Of a stretch of 64,000 bases of DNA, positions 45,179-56,430 are shown piece after piece. The notes under the pieces are model-generated. The model searched no databases, had not been told where the DNA came from, and saw only the letters and a program-made list of their open reading frames with translations. Location of the stretch: the NCBI RefSeq assembly GCF_003957295.1, contig NZ_RQPJ01000021.1, forward strand, positions 790,210 to 854,209. Reading direction: 5' to 3'. The translations under genes were made by a program, and so were the position numbers. Source of the stretch: Arenibacter aquaticus (lineage in GTDB: Bacteria; Bacteroidota; Bacteroidia; Flavobacteriales; Flavobacteriaceae). The number at the start of each line of letters is the position of its first letter. The first letter of the stretch is position 1.

Positions 45179-46348
45179 ATGGACTATAATAGACGCAAAT
45201 TTATTAGTAGATCTTTTGCTTCGGCTGCTGGAATGGCCTCTGCTGCTATGATACCAACACAAGTATTTGGCAATAACCTACACAGCACTGCAAGGCCGGA
45301 AGAGATAATATTGAAGCCCAATGCACCTTCAGAGAATAAAGAAAGTATTAAGTTTTCTGTAATAGGACTTAATCATGGTCATATTTACGGAATGGTAAAC
45401 TCCTTGATCAAAGGTGGAGGAAAAATGGTGGCAGTATATGCCGAAGAGCCAGAGTTATTACAGGAGTTCCTAAAACGTTATCCTAACACCACGGTTGCCA
45501 AAAATCAGAAAGAAATACTGGAAGACAATTCCATTCAGCTAGTGGCCAGTGCTTCCATCCCAATAGAAAGGGCACCGCTTGGAATTCGCGTAATGAAAAC
45601 TGGTAAGGATTTTATGACAGACAAGCCAGGCATTCTTACCATGGATCAGTTTAAGGAAGTAAAAAGGGTACAGAAAGAAACCAAGCGCATTTATTCTATA
45701 GTCTATAGTGAGCGCCTGGGAAATCCGGCTTCTGTAAAGGCGGGTGAATTGGTAAGAGCTGGGGCAATAGGGAAAGTAGTACAAACTATTGGCCTAGGTC
45801 CACATAGAATGCGTCCGGAATCACGACCGGAATGGTTCTTTGACCCCAACAAGGCAGGAGGAATATTGTGTGACATAGGCTCCCATCAATGTGATCAATT
45901 TCTTTACTATACCAACTCCCAACAAGCGGAAGTTAATTACTCACAAATAGGGAATTTTAAAAATTCCCACAATCCAATATATCAAGATTTTGGAGACATG
46001 AGCCTGAGAAGTCAACACGCCACAGGTTACATTAGAGTTGACTGGTTTACTCCTGAAGGTTTAGGTACTTGGGGAGATGGCCGTACCTTTATTCTAGGAA
46101 CGGAAGGCTATATAGAAATGCGCAAATATATTGATATTGCGGGTAGAGAGGGAGGCAACCATCTGTTTTTGGTAAACCAGAAAGAAACTAAATATTACGA
46201 TTGCTCCCACATTAATATGCCCTATGGACAACAACTTGTTTACGATGTGGTGCACCGTACCCAAACCGCCATGTCTCAGGACCATTGCTTCTTGGCAACG
46301 AAATTGGCACTGATCGCTCAGGAAAGGGCCCATAAAATCAATGTATGA
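45179..46348 (+). CDS. Exported Gfo/Idh/MocA family oxidoreductase
   Basis: A 389-residue NAD(P)-dependent oxidoreductase family member with a twin-arginine-like leader (NRRKFISRSFASAAG, residues 4-18). SVIGLNHGHIYGMVNSL replaces the usual GxGxxG with a variant nucleotide loop, and MTDKPGI takes the EKP position. CDIGSHQCDQFLYYT includes the substrate-side Asp-x-Gly-x-His. It is shorter and clearly different from the 504-residue paralogue at 29804. It precedes a small ACT-domain gene by 36 bp. The GH105 gene downstream suggests a sugar-related role, by inference. Confidence 0.87.
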   Translation: MDYNRRKFISRSFASAAGMASAAMIPTQVFGNNLHSTARPEEIILKPNAPSENKESIKFSVIGLNHGHIYGMVNSLIKGGGKMVAVYAEEPELLQEFLKRYPNTTVAKNQKEILEDNSIQLVASASIPIERAPLGIRVMKTGKDFMTDKPGILTMDQFKEVKRVQKETKRIYSIVYSERLGNPASVKAGELVRAGAIGKVVQTIGLGPHRMRPESRPEWFFDPNKAGGILCDIGSHQCDQFLYYTNSQQAEVNYSQIGNFKNSHNPIYQDFGDMSLRSQHATGYIRVDWFTPEGLGTWGDGRTFILGTEGYIEMRKYIDIAGREGGNHLFLVNQKETKYYDCSHINMPYGQQLVYDVVHRTQTAMSQDHCFLATKLALIAQERAHKINV

Positions 46349-48267: not shown

Positions 48268-48297
48268 TTGTAGATTTAAAAAAGTTCTAAATTTTTG
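48268..48297 (+). promoter_or_regulatory. Promoter of the metallothionein-like gene
   Basis: TTG (48268-48270), a 17-bp spacer and TAAATTTTTG (48288-48297) approximate the Bacteroidota -33/-7 pattern, with two extra T residues in the -7 box. The predicted transcript would start about 45 nt before the ATG. Confidence 0.4.
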
Positions 48298-48349
48298 TAT
48301 CCTTTTAGGCATTATTCAGTCTCCTTATTGAATCTAAAATTTAATAGAC

Positions 48350-48463
48350 ATGAATAATTGTAAATGCACAAACTGTGAATGCACAAAATGCAATTGTGTT
48401 GACTGTTCAAAAAAGGACTGCTCTTGTACAAAATGTGAATGTACCAAGTGCGATTGTTGCTAA
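48350..48463 (+). CDS. Metallothionein-like cysteine-rich small protein (37 residues, 14 Cys)
   Basis: A very short gene whose product has Cys at 4, 6, 9, 11, 14, 16, 19, 24, 26, 29, 31, 34, 36 and 37. It is built from five-residue units: CKCTN, CECTK, CNCVD, CSKKD, CSCTK, CECTK and CDCC. The only other residues are mostly Lys, Asn, Asp, Glu, Thr and Ser, with no aromatic or His residue. This is a metal-thiolate cluster peptide in appearance, able to bind several Cu(I), Zn(II) or Cd(II) ions. It does not resemble the longer SmtA/BmtA bacterial metallothioneins. It is followed directly by a strong hairpin and, 42 bp after its stop, by a SigZ-type sigma factor gene. There is no close similarity I can name. 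Confidence 0.85.
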   Translation: MNNCKCTNCECTKCNCVDCSKKDCSCTKCECTKCDCC

Positions 48464-48492
48464 AAAGGTTGGTCTATAAGGACCAACCTTTT
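48463..48492 (+). terminator. Terminator or attenuator hairpin between the Cys-rich gene and sigZ
   Basis: AAAAGGTTGGTC pairs perfectly with GACCAACCTTTT around TATAAG, a 12-bp stem ending in four T. It starts at the stop codon of the metallothionein-like gene and ends 13 bp before the sigma factor ATG, so most transcripts should stop here, leaving sigZ to read-through or a separate promoter. Confidence 0.8.
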
Positions 48493-48505
48493 ATATTAGT
48501 ATACT

Positions 48506-49033
48506 ATGAAAATGGAAACGGCGGACATTTGGAAACAATTTAATGGAGAGATATATTTTTTTATTCTTAAAAAAGTGAAGGATGCAGATGCTTCAATGGA
48601 TATATTACAAAATTCCTTCCTAAAGATCCATCAAAATCTAAAAACCATAAAAGACCCAGGGAAGGTCAAAGCTTGGGTTTTTCAAATTGTAAGAAATGAA
48701 ATTGCCAATTATTTTAATTCAAAGTCAAAAACCCCATACCCCAATGATAAGCTGCTCCCTGTGTCGCAAGAGAACTATGAGGATTTCTGTTGCTTTGATC
48801 AATTTATAGACAATTTGCCAGATACCTACCAAGAGGTAATTAAATTGGTCTATTTAAAAGGAAAAACACAAACTGAAGTTGCCGAAATAGCGGGTATAAG
48901 CTTGGCCAATGTAAAAGCCAGAATTAGAAGGGCCAAATTGATCCTGATACATAATTTTAATGATTGTTGTAGGTTTTCCATAAACAAGGAAGGTAAACTT
49001 GTAGGCGAATCCAATTGCCCTAAATGCCACTAA
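48506..49033 (+). CDS. sigZ: RNA polymerase ECF sigma factor, SigZ type, with cysteine-rich tail
   Basis: A 175-residue ECF sigma factor. Region 2 spans about 10-75 (ILQNSFLKIHQNLKTIKDPGKVKAWVFQIVRNEI) and region 4 about 100-150 (LPDTYQEVIKLVYLKGKTQTEVAEIAGISLANVKARIRRAK). The linker has Cys95-Cys96, and the tail has Cys154-Cys155 and a final Cys171-x2-Cys174-His175, the layout seen in SigZ proteins. No anti-sigma gene is adjacent, so the cysteines themselves may sense metal or redox state. Its partner upstream is the 14-Cys peptide gene, which suggests, without proof, a metal/thiol stress circuit. Confidence 0.88.
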   Translation: MKMETADIWKQFNGEIYFFILKKVKDADASMDILQNSFLKIHQNLKTIKDPGKVKAWVFQIVRNEIANYFNSKSKTPYPNDKLLPVSQENYEDFCCFDQFIDNLPDTYQEVIKLVYLKGKTQTEVAEIAGISLANVKARIRRAKLILIHNFNDCCRFSINKEGKLVGESNCPKCH

Positions 49034-49157: not shown

Positions 49158-49850
49158 ATGATAATAAAGGAGTTAAAATTATTCTCTTCCCAAATTAAGG
49201 CCCAAACCGAATTTTATTCGGAAGTTTTGGGGCTGAAGAAGCTTTATGGGTCTATAAATAAGGTGTCCTTTCAAGTGGGGAATTCCATTTTACATTTGGA
49301 ATACAAAGAGGACGCAACTCCTTACCATTTCGCTATTAATATCCCTGCCAACAAAGAACAAGAAGCATTTCACTGGTTAAAATCCAGACTGAGGATACTT
49401 AAGGACGGTCAAGATGAGATCATAGATTTCAAAGCTTGGAACGCCAAGGCCATATACTTCTATGATCACGACAAAAACATTGTGGAGCTCATTGCCCGTA
49501 AAAATCTTAAAAACCATTCGGAACTAGAATTTAGTGCTGACCAATTTTTGGAAATTTCTGAAATTGGTGTGCCAACGAACGATATTGAGAGAGAGTACGG
49601 AACGTTGAGAGATGTAATGGATATTGGGATTTACGATGGTGGATTGGGGAACTTTTGTGCCATTGGTGATGAAAATGGCTTGTTTATCTGCATCAACAAA
49701 AACAGGAAAAACTGGTACCCTACACAGGATAAGGCCTATTTTTCAGATTTTGAAGTCATAGTACTGCAGGAAGGAAAATCTTATTGTGCAAACTATAGGG
49801 ACGGGGCAATAAAAGTGCAACACTTCCACCAAGGTATGGGAAGCAATTAG
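49158..49850 (+). CDS. VOC superfamily (glyoxalase/dioxygenase-like) protein
   Basis: A 230-residue cytoplasmic protein with two beta-alpha-beta-beta-beta modules. A GTG at 49101 is in frame, but the ATG at 49158 begins the conserved part (IIKELKLFSSQIKAQTEFYSEVLGLKKLYG). IYFYDHDKNIVELIARKN closes the first module, with His and Glu as likely metal ligands, and the second resembles SEIGVPTNDIEREYGTLRDVMDIGIYDG. It could be a glyoxalase, a ring-cleaving dioxygenase or a resistance-type VOC protein; none is certain. Confidence 0.85.
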   Translation: MIIKELKLFSSQIKAQTEFYSEVLGLKKLYGSINKVSFQVGNSILHLEYKEDATPYHFAINIPANKEQEAFHWLKSRLRILKDGQDEIIDFKAWNAKAIYFYDHDKNIVELIARKNLKNHSELEFSADQFLEISEIGVPTNDIEREYGTLRDVMDIGIYDGGLGNFCAIGDENGLFICINKNRKNWYPTQDKAYFSDFEVIVLQEGKSYCANYRDGAIKVQHFHQGMGSN

Positions 49851-51497: not shown

Positions 51498-51977
51498 TTA
51501 AATTTCTTCGGCCAACCAAGCCTTCATCATCCAAACAGTTTTTTCCTGCTCGGTAATAAATTCGCTCATCATGGCATTTGTTCCTTCATCGGAAGCTTCA
51601 TCGGATGCATCCAAAATAGCCCTTTCTATCACCAATAACTCCGTTAAGGAATCAACTATCAACCTAATTGCGTCTTCATCTTTGGTAATATTCTTACCTA
51701 CCGGTACTTTGGCATTCTTACTATAGTCCTCAAAGGTATGTAAAGGTACTCCACCTAAAGTAAGAATACGTTCTGCTATTTCATCTACTTTTAAATTGGC
51801 ATCCGTATATAACTCCTCAAATTTCACATGAAGATCAAAAAACCTTTTCCCTTTTATATTCCAATGAATCCCACGAAGATTTTGGTAATAGGTCTGGAAA
51901 TTGGCCAACAATTTATTTAAATCATTGCTCAAGGATTTTGACTTGGCCACATCTAGGCCTATACTGTTAAGTTGCAT
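51498..51977 (-). CDS. dps: Dps family ferritin-like DNA-protection protein
   Basis: A 159-residue Dps mini-ferritin. Ferroxidase ligands follow the family pattern GIHWNIKGKRFFDLHVKFEELY: His38, His50, and Asp65 and Glu69 in KVDEIAER. Dps oxidises Fe(II) with H2O2 and stores it in a 12-mer, protecting DNA. The N-terminus is short and carries Lys12/Lys14 that could contact DNA. A -7 box (TACTTTTG on the minus strand, 52009-52016) lies upstream. An OxyR gene is 4.6 kb away and may control it. Confidence 0.93.
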   Translation of the reverse strand: MQLNSIGLDVAKSKSLSNDLNKLLANFQTYYQNLRGIHWNIKGKRFFDLHVKFEELYTDANLKVDEIAERILTLGGVPLHTFEDYSKNAKVPVGKNITKDEDAIRLIVDSLTELLVIERAILDASDEASDEGTNAMMSEFITEQEKTVWMMKAWLAEEI

Positions 51978-52292
51978 AATTATATTCTTTTTAAATTATT
52001 TATTACCTCAAAAGTAATGCAATTGCCACATTTAATGAAGTCAGGGCTATTGATAGTATTTATAACCGAATAATATTATATAATTATGAAATGTTGGTAG
52101 TTTACAATTGGAACAATTCTTGATATGATATTTAAAGTTTTGAGAAAAAATACAAATAAGTGAACATTATTTTATGCTTATAACATAGTATTTCTTAAAA
52201 AATTATGAAAAGAATAACATATTTTCTTACAGATAATTATAGGACTAAACTAAATTTAACCTAATTCTAGACCATTAACTAAACCACCTATC
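51978..52292. other. Intergenic region, 315 bp, divergent promoters
   Basis: Very AT-rich spacer between dps (minus) and the adaptor gene (plus). It contains an exact minus-strand -7 box for dps and TAAATTTA near 52250 as a loose match for the plus-strand gene. No open frame is evident. Confidence 0.5.
52009..52016 (-). promoter_or_regulatory. Bacteroidota -7 promoter box for dps
   Basis: The minus strand reads TACTTTTG, an exact TAnnTTTG match, 32 bp before the dps ATG. No TTG is found at the standard -33 spacing, which suggests a promoter dependent on an activator such as OxyR. Confidence 0.5.
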
Positions 52293-53537
52293 ATGAGTAA
52301 AAAGAAGCTATTGCTCTCTGGTATTCCTATTGTACTTATTCTTCTTGGATATACCTTGTTCGGAAACAATTCCGATGAAGATGTGGCCATTACCACTAAG
52401 GTAGTCAAAGGCCAATTTACCAGTGAGGTAATTATCTCTGGGGAGGCCCAATCCACAAGCTTAAAAAAAATAAACGGTCCCAATGACATTCGCAAGTTTA
52501 AGCTAAGGGACGTAAAGATCCAGGATTTAATACCAGAGGGATCGGTTGTAAAGAAAGGGGACTATGTAGGTAGATTGGACCCTTCAGAAGTAAATGAACA
52601 AATCATTGATGCCCAATTAAATTTGGAAACAGCACAATCCAAATACACCCAAGAACAACTGGATACCACCCTAACCTTGAAACAGGAGCGGACTGCTATT
52701 AAAGATTTGTTATTCGACATTGAGGAGAACAAATTGGAACTAAAACAATCTATTTATGAGCCACCGGCCACCATAAAGAAATTGGAAATAAATATTGAGC
52801 GTTTGGAGCGCGACTTAAAGGAGAAAAAGGAGGATTACAAGATAAAGGAACAGAAAGCCATGGCCAAAATGGTTGAGGTAGGCACGGAAGTCTCCAAAAT
52901 AAAGAAAACACTTGAAGAACTTCAAAATCTACAGAAATCCTTCACTATTCATTCCGATGCCAATGGTATGGTAACCTACGCCAAAAACTGGGACGGTTCC
53001 AAAAGAAAAGTCGGTTCTTCAATAAGTATGTGGGATCCGGCCATTGCTACCCTACCCGATCTTAATAAAATGGAATCCAAGACCTATGCCAATGAAGTGG
53101 ATATTAGAAAAATAAAAAAAGACCTTCCTGTAATTATTGGGTTTGATGCCTTTCCGGATATAACCCTAAAAGGTACGGTAACCAATGTGGCCAATGTAGG
53201 AGAAGTGAAACGAGGTTCGGATATTAAACTTTTTCAGGTACTGGTAAACATGGACGAAAACAATCCCAATGTTAGGCCCGGAATGACCACCTCTAATCGG
53301 ATTATTATACACCAGGAAGAAAATGTCCTAATGGTTCCCCTAGAGGCTATTTTTTCACAAGATTCCATTAGCTATGTTTACGCAAAATCGGGACTTTCCA
53401 TTTCCAAAAAAGAAGTGGAAATGGGCGATTCCAATGTAGACGTGGTTATCATTAAAAAGGGGGTAGATGAAAATGAAGTGGTGTATCTAAGCAAGCCAGA
53501 AGGGCTGGAGGAAAAAAGCATTCTTTCCTTAAACTAA
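52293..53537 (+). CDS. HlyD/MacA-like periplasmic adaptor protein
   Basis: A 414-residue membrane-fusion protein. One N-terminal helix (about 4-24) anchors it. The lipoyl/barrel segments surround a long coiled-coil (about residues 100-215, ETAQSKYTQEQLDTTLTLKQE to KTLEELQNLQ). IIISGEAQSTSLKKI and VRPGMTTSNRIIIHQEENVLMVPLEAI are typical MacA/RND adaptor parts. It links an inner-membrane ABC permease to a TolC-like channel. The permease gene begins 4 bp after its stop, so the two are co-expressed. Confidence 0.9.
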   Translation: MSKKKLLLSGIPIVLILLGYTLFGNNSDEDVAITTKVVKGQFTSEVIISGEAQSTSLKKINGPNDIRKFKLRDVKIQDLIPEGSVVKKGDYVGRLDPSEVNEQIIDAQLNLETAQSKYTQEQLDTTLTLKQERTAIKDLLFDIEENKLELKQSIYEPPATIKKLEINIERLERDLKEKKEDYKIKEQKAMAKMVEVGTEVSKIKKTLEELQNLQKSFTIHSDANGMVTYAKNWDGSKRKVGSSISMWDPAIATLPDLNKMESKTYANEVDIRKIKKDLPVIIGFDAFPDITLKGTVTNVANVGEVKRGSDIKLFQVLVNMDENNPNVRPGMTTSNRIIIHQEENVLMVPLEAIFSQDSISYVYAKSGLSISKKEVEMGDSNVDVVIIKKGVDENEVVYLSKPEGLEEKSILSLN

Positions 53538-53541
53538 GCCC

Positions 53542-54912
53542 ATGATAGACAAAATACTATTAGAAAAGATCATATCCAATATCCAAGAGGCCATACGGGT
53601 AGTGATAATCAATAAGGTCAGGACCTTTTTAACGGCATTGGGAATAATATTTGGAGTAGCTGCTGTTATCACCATGCTATCTATTGGCAATGGTGCCGAG
53701 AAAGAGATTCTCTCCCAACTGGAATTGGTAGGGGTAAACAACATTGTGGTAACCCCCATACCGGATGAAGAGGATGAAAACGGTAGCGAGGAGGACGAAG
53801 GGGTCCAAGAGACCACAAGGTTTTCCAAAGGACTGGATCTATTGGATGTAAATAGCATAGCTCAAAACATTCCAACGGTAAGGGCTATTAGTCCAGAAAT
53901 AATTTTGGAAACCTATGTCATAAAAAAAGGCAGGCAAAATTCGGTAAAACTTATTGGGGTCACCAATTCCTTTTTCAAGACCTCGAACATTCACATTGGC
54001 AAAGGCAATCTCTTTTCCAAAGAACACACAAAAAACGCTGCTGCAGTCTGTATTATTGGTGAAAAAGTAGAAAAGAAATTATTCCCTGGCGAGAGTGCCG
54101 TAGGGAAACAGATCAAGGTAAAGGATGTTTGGCTAAAAGTAATAGGTATAATAGAAGAAAAACTTATTTCTGATAAGGCCCAGGAAAATTTAGGTATTAG
54201 GGATTTAAATCAGGATATCTATATCCCGGTAAAAACCTTCCTGACACGATATAAGGATAGAAAAATTATTTCAGATGTGCCGATAGATTACAGTGGAGGC
54301 GGCGTAATCATCGTAAGTGGTGCCAACAACGGACCAAAAAAAAGAATTCCCAGGGGCAACTACCATCAATTGGACCGCTTAACCGTTCAGGTTAACAATT
54401 CCAATGAACTAAAGGCTACGGCAGAAGTACTGAGCAAACTTCTTAAACGAAAACACAATGACGTCTTGGATTTTGAAATTACCATACCCATTCATTTGTT
54501 GAAACAACAACAAAAGACCAAACAGATTTTTAATATAGTGCTTAGTGTCATAGCCGGGATATCACTTTTAATAGGAGGTATTGGTATTATGAACATAATG
54601 CTGGCATCGGTTTTGGAGCGTACCAAAGAGATAGGGATCATGAGGGCCATAGGAGCTACCAAACAAGATGTTATTCTTCAGTTTTTATCTGAGTCGGTCC
54701 TAATTAGTCTAGCAGGAGGAATAATTGGAATTATACTGGGAATCATAGCGTCCTATGCCCTGGAGTTCACCACAGGGATAGAGACTATCCTTTCCTTAAA
54801 TTCAATTATACTGTCCTTTTTTGTGGCCACCCTAATAGGGCTACTATTTGGAGTACTGCCAGCTAAATCCGCTGCTAACAAAAACCCAATTGAGGCCATT
54901 AGACGCGAATAA
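53542..54912 (+). CDS. MacB-like ABC transporter permease (FtsX domain), no ATPase domain
   Basis: A 456-residue protein with one N-terminal transmembrane helix (VRTFLTALGIIFGVAAVITMLSIGNGAEKEI), a large periplasmic MacB-type domain (about 60-330) and three C-terminal helices ending in GLLFGVLPAKSAANKNPIEAIRRE. This is the membrane half of MacB; the ABC ATPase is neither fused nor encoded beside it. An acidic insert (DEEDENGSEEDEG, about residues 75-87) follows the first domain strand. Such permeases act as mechanotransmission devices that expel peptides or toxins through TolC rather than as classical importers. Confidence 0.9.
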   Translation: MIDKILLEKIISNIQEAIRVVIINKVRTFLTALGIIFGVAAVITMLSIGNGAEKEILSQLELVGVNNIVVTPIPDEEDENGSEEDEGVQETTRFSKGLDLLDVNSIAQNIPTVRAISPEIILETYVIKKGRQNSVKLIGVTNSFFKTSNIHIGKGNLFSKEHTKNAAAVCIIGEKVEKKLFPGESAVGKQIKVKDVWLKVIGIIEEKLISDKAQENLGIRDLNQDIYIPVKTFLTRYKDRKIISDVPIDYSGGGVIIVSGANNGPKKRIPRGNYHQLDRLTVQVNNSNELKATAEVLSKLLKRKHNDVLDFEITIPIHLLKQQQKTKQIFNIVLSVIAGISLLIGGIGIMNIMLASVLERTKEIGIMRAIGATKQDVILQFLSESVLISLAGGIIGIILGIIASYALEFTTGIETILSLNSIILSFFVATLIGLLFGVLPAKSAANKNPIEAIRRE

Positions 54913-54969
54913 AAAATAAATAAACAACGTATTTGTATTCCCCCACTATACCAATTAAAATAGTAGAGA

Positions 54970-56430
54970 ATGAAAAAATGCATTTTGCTCATATTTCTTA
55001 GTGCCCCACTCCTTATTTTGGGTCAATCCAAAAAACTAAAACTTTCAGAAGCCATAAAAATGGCAAAAAAAAATTCTCCGGAATACAAAGCTGTACTTAA
55101 CCTTTCGCAGGGAAGCTATTGGAGATACAGGACCTATATGGCCGAGTTTCTACCTCAGTTTAGGTTAACGGCCACCTTGCCCAATTATTCAAATTCCATC
55201 ACGAGAATAACCAATGATGAAGGCCAGGACATTTTTGTAAACCAAAACCAATCCAGAATAGATGGCCAACTATCCGTTGACCAGCGAGTAGGTTTCACAG
55301 GGGGCATACTTTCCCTTAATTCGGAGATTCAAAGGATTGATCGTTACGGCAGTGTGGAAACCAGCAATTATTCCTTGACCCCACTATCCCTAAACTATTA
55401 TCAAAACTCCTTGTTTTATAATCCTTATAAATGGGACAAAAAGATAGAGCCCTTAAAATACGAGGAGTCCAAGCGGGAATATATAGAAAGAATGGAAGAA
55501 ATAGCTCTTAGTAGTTGCCGACTCTATTTTGGGCTTTTAACTGCACAAATGCGGTTGAAAAATGCGGTAAACAACCTATCTACCCAAGATACACTATTAC
55601 AAATTGCAAAGGGAAGGTTTGAAATTGGAAAAATAGCGGAAAACGAGTTGCTACAGATGGAACTTGGACATTTAAATTCCCAAAACCAAGTAACTACCAA
55701 TACAATCTTGCTTAAAAAAACTTCACAAGATCTAGCCCGTTATCTAGAATTGCCAACGGAAGATATTGAACTGGAAATTCCAGAAAAACTAGTGGAATTT
55801 GAAGTAAGCCTGGAAACGGCATTGGACGAGGCCGCCACCAATAGAAAATCTGTTATCGAATTCAGACGAAGGCGTCTGGAAGCAGAAAAGAATCTGGCAC
55901 AGATAAAGGGTAGCAATAGACTGGAAATAAGCGTAAGTGCCAATTTTGGCCTAAACAAACGAGCAGAAGATTATGATTCCCTTTTTCAAGATTATGATAG
56001 ACAGCAAAATGTTTCTGTGAGATTGGGCATTCCAATTTTTGACTGGGGGGTCTCCAAATCCAAAGTAAAAATGGGCGAGGCCGATCTAGGTCTGGTAGAA
56101 ACCAATATAGAACAGGAACAACAGGCATTTGAACAGGAGATCTTCCTGCACATCCTTAATTGGTCCAGTAAGCGCGATTTCCTTGCAACTTCAGAAAAGG
56201 CAAAAGAGATAGCCGTAAAGCGATATGAGATTACCAAAGAACGTTATATTCTGGGCAAAATAACGATAACCGATTTAAATCTGGCCCAACAAGAAAAAGA
56301 CAAGGCAGAAATTGAATATTTAAACAGCCTGGAAGATTTTTGGATAGATTATTATACGCTCCGAAAATTAACCCTATATGATTTTATAAATGACGAAAAA
56401 ATTGAAGCCGAAAACCTTATATTTGATTAA
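54970..56430 (+). CDS. TolC-family outer-membrane efflux protein
   Basis: A 486-residue outer-membrane factor with a signal peptide ending in LILGQ. Features are the N-terminal LKLSEAIKMAKKNSPEYKAV, two long helical repeat stretches (about 165-275 and 385-470) and short barrel strands near RIDGQLSVDQRVGFTGGILS and VSVRLGIPIFDWG. The C-terminal KERYILGKITITDLNLAQQEKDKA is the usual TolC repeat end. It follows the permease by 57 bp and completes a tripartite exporter except for the ATPase. Confidence 0.9.
   Translation: MKKCILLIFLSAPLLILGQSKKLKLSEAIKMAKKNSPEYKAVLNLSQGSYWRYRTYMAEFLPQFRLTATLPNYSNSITRITNDEGQDIFVNQNQSRIDGQLSVDQRVGFTGGILSLNSEIQRIDRYGSVETSNYSLTPLSLNYYQNSLFYNPYKWDKKIEPLKYEESKREYIERMEEIALSSCRLYFGLLTAQMRLKNAVNNLSTQDTLLQIAKGRFEIGKIAENELLQMELGHLNSQNQVTTNTILLKKTSQDLARYLELPTEDIELEIPEKLVEFEVSLETALDEAATNRKSVIEFRRRRLEAEKNLAQIKGSNRLEISVSANFGLNKRAEDYDSLFQDYDRQQNVSVRLGIPIFDWGVSKSKVKMGEADLGLVETNIEQEQQAFEQEIFLHILNWSSKRDFLATSEKAKEIAVKRYEITKERYILGKITITDLNLAQQEKDKAEIEYLNSLEDFWIDYYTLRKLTLYDFINDEKIEAENLIFD

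Follow-up and report, generated by a model that had tools for sequence, protein, structure and literature searches.

A conserved pairing of a metallothionein-like peptide gene and a SigZ-like sigma factor gene in Bacteroidota, with a predicted role in metal(loid) sensing

Background

Bacterial metallothioneins such as SmtA/BmtA and MymT are short, cysteine-rich proteins with CxC and CxxC motifs. Attenuation by polycysteine leader peptides is known from mycobacteria.

Among ECF sigma factors, the family closest to the one described here is SigZ (models TIGR02959 and NF007215; Bacillus subtilis SigZ). The nearest working parallel is CorE, which, with CorE2, is found in Myxococcus xanthus (former ECF44 and ECF238). 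According to the excerpts of PMC8999054 and PMC3107203 on which we draw, these factors have a Cys-rich C-terminal tail, linker cysteines, and no linked anti-sigma factor. In CorE, the response to metal is determined by the tail together with a linker CXC, so a Cys tail that senses metal with no known anti-sigma factor has been described before. The same excerpts list CorE-type factors in four phyla, Bacteroidota not among them, and PMC3107203 makes no mention of metallothionein.

No link between SigZ and metallothioneins was found in the open-access literature, a scope that lies outside most subscription journals. Judged by titles and the beginnings of abstracts, that literature also held no link between SigZ and arsenic. 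Nor was a link of SigZ with either found among its listed papers on arsM or metallothionein with ECF sigma factors.

Here we examine a two-gene locus of Arenibacter aquaticus, within a 64,000-nucleotide stretch of DNA that we call the window. Its features are collected in Table 1.

Table 1. Features of the peptide–sigma factor locus (positions within the window)
Feature	Position	Strand	Basis
ECF-type promoter TGTATCCTTTTAGGCATTATTCAGTCTC; -35-like TGTATCCTTTT, -10-like GTCT; predicted use by the SigZ-like factor	48296..48323	+	conservation
TGAA box, 18–21 bases before the start codon in most long-pattern loci	48329..48332	+	conservation
Metallothionein-like peptide gene, type A, two 7-Cys halves	48350..48463	+	sequence and comparison
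12-bp hairpin between the peptide gene and sigZ, U-poor at its end; probably a partial terminator	48463..48492	+	sequence; folding
SigZ-like ECF sigma factor, 175 aa	48506..49033	+	profile search, alignment, tree
Linker Cys95-Cys96 codons, between regions 2 and 4	48788..48793	+	alignment
Tail with Cys154, Cys155, Cys171, Cys174	48965..49027	+	alignment

Results and discussion

A sequence-only reading had described a 37-codon gene with 14 Cys in near-regular five-residue units, 42 bp upstream of an ECF sigma gene. Both the gene and the spacing (48463 to 48506) were confirmed by the reading frame and its translation, in which the cysteines follow CxCxxCxCxxCxCxxC-x4-CxCxxCxCxxCxCC. Like SmtA/BmtA and MymT, the 37-aa peptide is short and very Cys-rich (14 residues, 38%), with CxC and CxxC motifs, and its pattern is kept throughout type A (defined below). 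It differs from them in having no His or aromatic residue, in its two equal 7-Cys halves, and in the tie of its gene to a sigma factor. The earlier view that it is unlike SmtA/BmtA also agrees with the model searches, in which no Pfam or NCBIfam family matched at E<=1. The best PDB match reached only E 0.25, and a plasmid search, in which the BLAST low-complexity filter may mask such a peptide, returned nothing. The peptide is probably a metal buffer.

Conservation of the short gene beside sigZ in relatives, proposed earlier as a check, was evaluated in a family sample of 299 genomes. The sigma factor was found at E<=1e-20 in 65 of these and the peptide in 16, with 15 of the 16 peptides lying, by position, directly upstream of a sigma gene found at that threshold. 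When the best 30 of 66 sigma-gene places were taken as loci, 29 had a Cys-rich mini-gene directly upstream, which is of type A (37–41 aa with 14 Cys) at 16 loci and of type B (11 Cys in 32–34 aa, counted from the nearest Met) at 13. In genome G226, L011 has the sigma factor and no Cys-rich peptide. Across the phylum sample, 13 of 30 fetched loci carry a Cys-rich mini-gene by the script's threshold, two of them family repeats (L064, L074); the gene lies downstream of sigZ in L055–L057 and L063. A further scan gave 80 loci, of which 27 (L144–L170) were treated as SigZ and 52 as other ECFs, while L173 was left out of the controls because its SigZ exceeds the cut-off. Such a mini-gene was present in 16 of these 27 SigZ loci (a seventeenth picked by the script, L164, is an antisense ORF and was not counted) and in none of the 52 others. 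Named carriers include Aequorivita, Psychroflexus, Salegentibacter, Pontibacter, Oceanihabitans, Polaribacter, Winogradskyella, and Gelidibacter.

At non-Cys codons, pN/pS was 0.48 for 20 type A genes and 0.54 for 24 type B genes, and the Cys codons of both sets vary only synonymously. This constancy is partly by construction, since the pN/pS sets were chosen by Cys pattern; the loci themselves were first found via the sigma gene and Cys content alone. A chance reading frame was rejected, since many genera have the peptide immediately before a related sigma gene and its Cys codons show purely synonymous changes. A larger conserved operon was also rejected, as type A neighbourhoods differ except among near relatives; the sole recurring neighbour set, which looks by eye like an ars operon, lies near 4 of 40 loci (L111, L113, L116, L134). 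The peptide gene and the sigma gene are a conserved unit. Separately, genome G223 has a type A-like peptide (L033:1468-1611, reverse strand) and no SigZ-like gene at E<=1e-20; by eye, antitoxin and PIN-type toxin genes follow this peptide.

The promoter is an addition to the sequence-only reading. The pattern preceding the peptide gene is TGyrTCyTTT-N12-GTCT, and the upstream consensus is TGTATCyTTTT-N12-GTCTmC for type A and TGCATCTTTTT-N11-CGTCTA for type B, each clearest in Flavobacteriaceae loci. Over 87 locus entries, some of them repeats, the common promoter pattern had 72 matches versus 3 when reversed. The long pattern had 25 matches in 48 related genomes versus none for its reversed control, and its one match in the window's own genome is the promoter of Table 1. 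Twenty-three of the 25 precede type A or B peptides (22 by script, L324 by reading the sequence), and the long pattern therefore marks this peptide family. The remaining two lie before another Cys-rich peptide (L329) and before arsM beside a second sigZ (L337). As 23 of the 48 genomes have no match, the long pattern is specific, not complete. The strict promoter was observed at 21 of 46 newly sampled SigZ loci versus 1 of 52 other ECF loci, and that sole control, L172, may be a distant SigZ.

Matches beyond the peptide genes were also evaluated, and a larger regulon was rejected. The type A pattern had 27 matches in 18 genomes versus 8 reversed, 12 of them at the peptide gene; the other 15 comprise 13 inside ORFs and 2 intergenic. 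Three extra matches in the window's own genome are all inside ORFs. With the looser type B pattern, 49 matches in 65 genomes compared with 7 reversed. Sixteen of the 49 are away from, or extra to, sigZ genes: 9 in ORFs, 3 intergenic with no gene start found, and 4 before a gene (arsM, two CDF exporters, and a 716-aa protein). The CDF exporters behind a SigZ-type promoter are in two type B genomes (L308, L309), and both sites come from these 16 extra matches of a pattern with 7 reversed-control matches overall. A SigZ-type promoter also precedes an unlinked arsM (L307), an arsM beside the second sigZ of a Flavobacteriaceae genome (L311), and one beside sigZ in G515 (L317).

Three other sites were recorded in passing. 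The 716-aa protein of G317 (L310:594-2741) is encoded a few kb from sigZ and has no NCBIfam match at E<=1e-15. In G525 (L316:3693-5054), the promoter precedes a MATE exporter beside sigZ (TIGR00797 over cut-off). In G226 (L104:9277-11448, L082), where sigZ has no peptide, one of the two intergenic type A matches lies before a gene that resembles TonB receptors, with all TonB models below cut-off, and that converges with sigZ.

The perfect 12-bp hairpin seen earlier between the genes is present, with arms at 48463–48474 and 48481–48492 around a 6-nt loop, and it begins on the final base of the peptide stop codon. A hairpin folds in all 14 type A gaps tested, a set that omits L017 as a near copy of L018 and whose control shuffles preserve single-base content only; by eye, pair changes occur on both sides. 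Four further type A loci (L014, L015, L072, L075) have gaps of 4 or -19 bp and no room for a hairpin, which therefore is not essential.

The SigZ models are the best matches of the window's sigma factor, and its scores of 128.4 bits for TIGR02959 (cut-off 168.65) and 149.3 bits for NF007215 (cut-off 212) lie under both cut-offs. We therefore call it SigZ-like; the earlier assignment to SigZ type is right about the nearest models and too strong by their cut-offs. Linker and tail cysteines and the promoter type are common to this factor and the SigZ family, from which it is set apart by those scores and by its place in a Bacteroidota clade marked by a Cys-rich peptide gene. The window factor nests among the 118 SigZ and SigZ-like rows of a tree that was built from these rows alone and has weak deep forks. 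This tree skipped repeats (L064, L074, L148, L225, L227) and 14 loci lacking a script-picked ORF (L009, L012, L014, L060, L073, L076, L170, L267, L268, L270, L272–L275). The sigma factors of type A (20) and type B (24) and that of L011 form one clade with support of 99/96, and the type B factors are also one clade. Other Cys-rich partners are on other branches, which makes it probable that such peptides were recruited on more than one occasion.

The tail residues reported previously (Cys154, Cys155, Cys171, Cys174, and His175) were verified in the translation and alignment, and the linker Cys95-Cys96 is added here. Cys96 is invariant in a 24-row alignment and present in 106 of 118 SigZ rows versus 1 of 52 other ECFs. 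The corresponding counts are 98 and 0 for Cys154, 113 and 1 for Cys155, 93 and 1 for Cys171, and 93 and 0 for Cys174. Type A factors have CC in the linker, while type B factors have a single C. An AlphaFold model of the window factor had a mean pLDDT of 79, with values below 50 in the linker (75–93) and of 61–72 in the tail. The PDB matches for the SigZ-like factor were ordinary ECF factors. No anti-sigma family was found among the six other window genes scanned (five around the pair and one at 45179–46348), in keeping with the earlier remark that no such gene is nearby. The locus resembles CorE in having no linked anti-sigma gene among those neighbours, Cys in the linker, and a C-terminal extension with conserved cysteines, for which a metal response is predicted. 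CorE, as described in the excerpts, has 6 Cys in its tail and a CXC in its linker, whereas the tail here has 4 and the linker carries CC or one C; for want of the CXC, we do not file the factor as CorE-like by descent.

Neighbouring genes hint at what the SigZ family senses. At SigZ loci without a peptide, the promoter precedes arsM in L152, L163, and L167 (NF008823 over cut-off) and arsI/cadI in L053 (NF041414 over cut-off), and arsI/cadI follows sigZ in L050. Two further phyla were then sampled at 299 genomes each; 27 genomes of the first gave 27 loci, and 20 of the second gave 21. L227 and L225 were kept out, as they come from the same genomes as the loci that raised the arsenic idea, leaving 46. 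Here the promoter was observed before arsI (L231, L232), arsM (L233, L262), ArsP-type permease genes (L238, L251), and DUF2703 genes. An ArsM, ArsI, ACR3, or ArsP-type gene lies within ~1.5 kb of 18 of the 46 SigZ loci (13/26 and 5/20 in the two phylum samples) versus 0 of 52 other ECF loci, which would be 1 of 53 with L173 included. Fisher's p of 1.4e-7 for this comparison is too small because the 46 loci include close relatives, and the ars reference proteins were taken from SigZ loci themselves. Ten of the 18 have ArsM, ArsI, or ACR3, and eight have only an ArsP-type permease, a group that scores below the cut-offs of named NCBIfam exporters. None of the four gene types occurs within ~1.5 kb of the other 28 SigZ loci. 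Models confirmed ArsI (L231), ACR3 (L241), an ArsR-type regulator (L250), a PF03773 permease (L238, L275), and DUF2703 (L260, L265, L273, L276); the further ars-type assignments come from BLAST with these or related queries.

DUF2703 (PF10865), a domain of unknown function, occurs at 17 of 21 Bacillota SigZ loci (L257–L261, L263–L266, L268–L274, L276), often behind a SigZ-type promoter and with Cys-rich ends. It was spotted on reading the Bacillota loci and stands outside the Fisher test; it may belong to metal(loid) defence.

Peptide-bearing loci are seldom found by ars genes, with 1 of 30 in the family set within 1.5 kb and 4 of 40 within ~8 kb, the latter a count with no control set. The window's own genome has an ACR3 gene elsewhere, with no promoter match at it. 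According to the gene tables of two Priestia plasmids and one Vibrio plasmid, no ars gene lies within 4 kb of their sigZ. A Hymenobacter plasmid has the SigZ-type promoter both upstream of sigZ and upstream of a Cys-rich ORF of 22 aa, and its annotation places ArsC and ACR3 ~2 kb beyond sigZ.

Other genes of the window were noted as well. The gene after sigZ (49161–49850) is VOC/glyoxalase-like, with PF12681 below cut-off and no match to the ArsI/CadI NCBIfam model at E<=1; locus L105, from the same genus, has a similar gene after its sigZ. By eye, 51498–56430 encodes Dps, a MacA-like adaptor, an ABC permease, and a TolC-like protein, one on the minus and three on the plus strand.

We consider it reasonably probable that the sigma factor of the pair regulates its own expression, senses soft metal(loid)s through its own thiols, and has a metallothionein as its main target. 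The SigZ-like factor would work without an anti-sigma factor. Soft, thiol-seeking metal(loid) ions would bind linker Cys 95/96 and tail Cys 154/155 and 171/174, bringing the factor into a form that uses the 48296 promoter. The peptide gene would then be transcribed strongly, and sigZ weakly through partial read-through of the hairpin, which would amount to autoregulation. With its two 7-Cys halves, the peptide would sequester the ion and thereby switch the sigma factor off again. We infer metal binding by both proteins, direct sensing, promoter use by the SigZ-like factor, read-through, and feedback. The metal or thiol stress circuit suggested by the sequence-only reading gains from the conserved pair, the promoter, the near family-wide cysteines, and the detoxification genes beside SigZ relatives, and is weakened by how rarely the peptide-bearing loci themselves adjoin ars genes.

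As for the inducer under this metal(loid)-sensing model, the wider SigZ family points to arsenic, and the two type B CDF sites point to divalent metals such as Zn. As(III)/Sb(III) is the leading possibility and Cd/Zn/Hg the next, with copper unlikely and any other inducer less likely still. As(III) or Cd/Zn is thus likelier than the Cu(I)/Zn(II) proposed earlier, of which Zn is in line with the CDF sites, while the family-wide evidence suggests arsenic.

An alternative is a redox or electrophile circuit, in which the sigma factor cysteines sense disulfide stress or electrophiles and the peptide is a thiol scavenger. The paired cysteines of linker and tail would suit this, and some SigZ loci adjoin glutathione S-transferase-like genes (L239). 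We regard it as unlikely, as the recurring partners identified by family models are arsenic or metal genes, and the even spacing of the CxCxx units, which is the same across types A and B, suits metal clusters better than free scavenging.

The peptide might instead mainly regulate SigZ, binding it or stripping its metal in the manner of an anti-sigma factor, with storage secondary. One peptide gene per sigma gene, a common promoter, and co-inheritance in one clade are consistent with such a role. Residues outside the cysteines vary freely, however, quite different Cys-rich peptides lie before or after the sigma gene on other SigZ branches, and L011 retains the sigma factor without a peptide, which together make this improbable.

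Cys-only peptides suit Cu(I), and in a copper-specific circuit this ion would be sensed as well as stored by the peptide. Among the loci read, where models were run on some neighbours only, no copper gene stood out as a repeated partner or as a target of the promoter, and the ArsP-type permeases match the SO_0444 Cu/Zn efflux model below its cut-off only. Although CorE responds to copper (PMC3107203, from excerpts), we judge this reading just as improbable as the preceding one.

Lastly, a polycysteine leader, at which ribosomes stalling on Cys codons under cysteine shortage would let transcription pass the hairpin into sigZ, matches the window's layout of a short Cys-rich ORF ending at a hairpin ahead of a gene, but it was rejected as very improbable, as Cys positions and length are fixed where only Cys density would matter, the four loci with short or negative gaps have no room for the hairpin, and the gene order is reversed in L055–L057 and L063, with a promoter site of the Cys-rich gene's own in L055–L057.

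Conclusions

The evidence is evenly balanced, in our judgement, on a wider proposal for the SigZ family. It may be a widespread sensor that works without an anti-sigma factor, responds to arsenite and other soft metal(loid)s, and uses a single conserved promoter type to drive arsM, arsI, DUF2703, or permease genes in several phyla, and one Bacteroidota clade may have rewired it so that an undescribed metallothionein family is its main, often only, target. One testable model would then join what SigZ-type factors sense to what they transcribe, and would also address the presence in many Bacteroidota of a metallothionein-like mini-gene overlooked by curated models. If true, the locus would be a natural metal sensor of small size, with regulator and buffer in ~0.7 kb.
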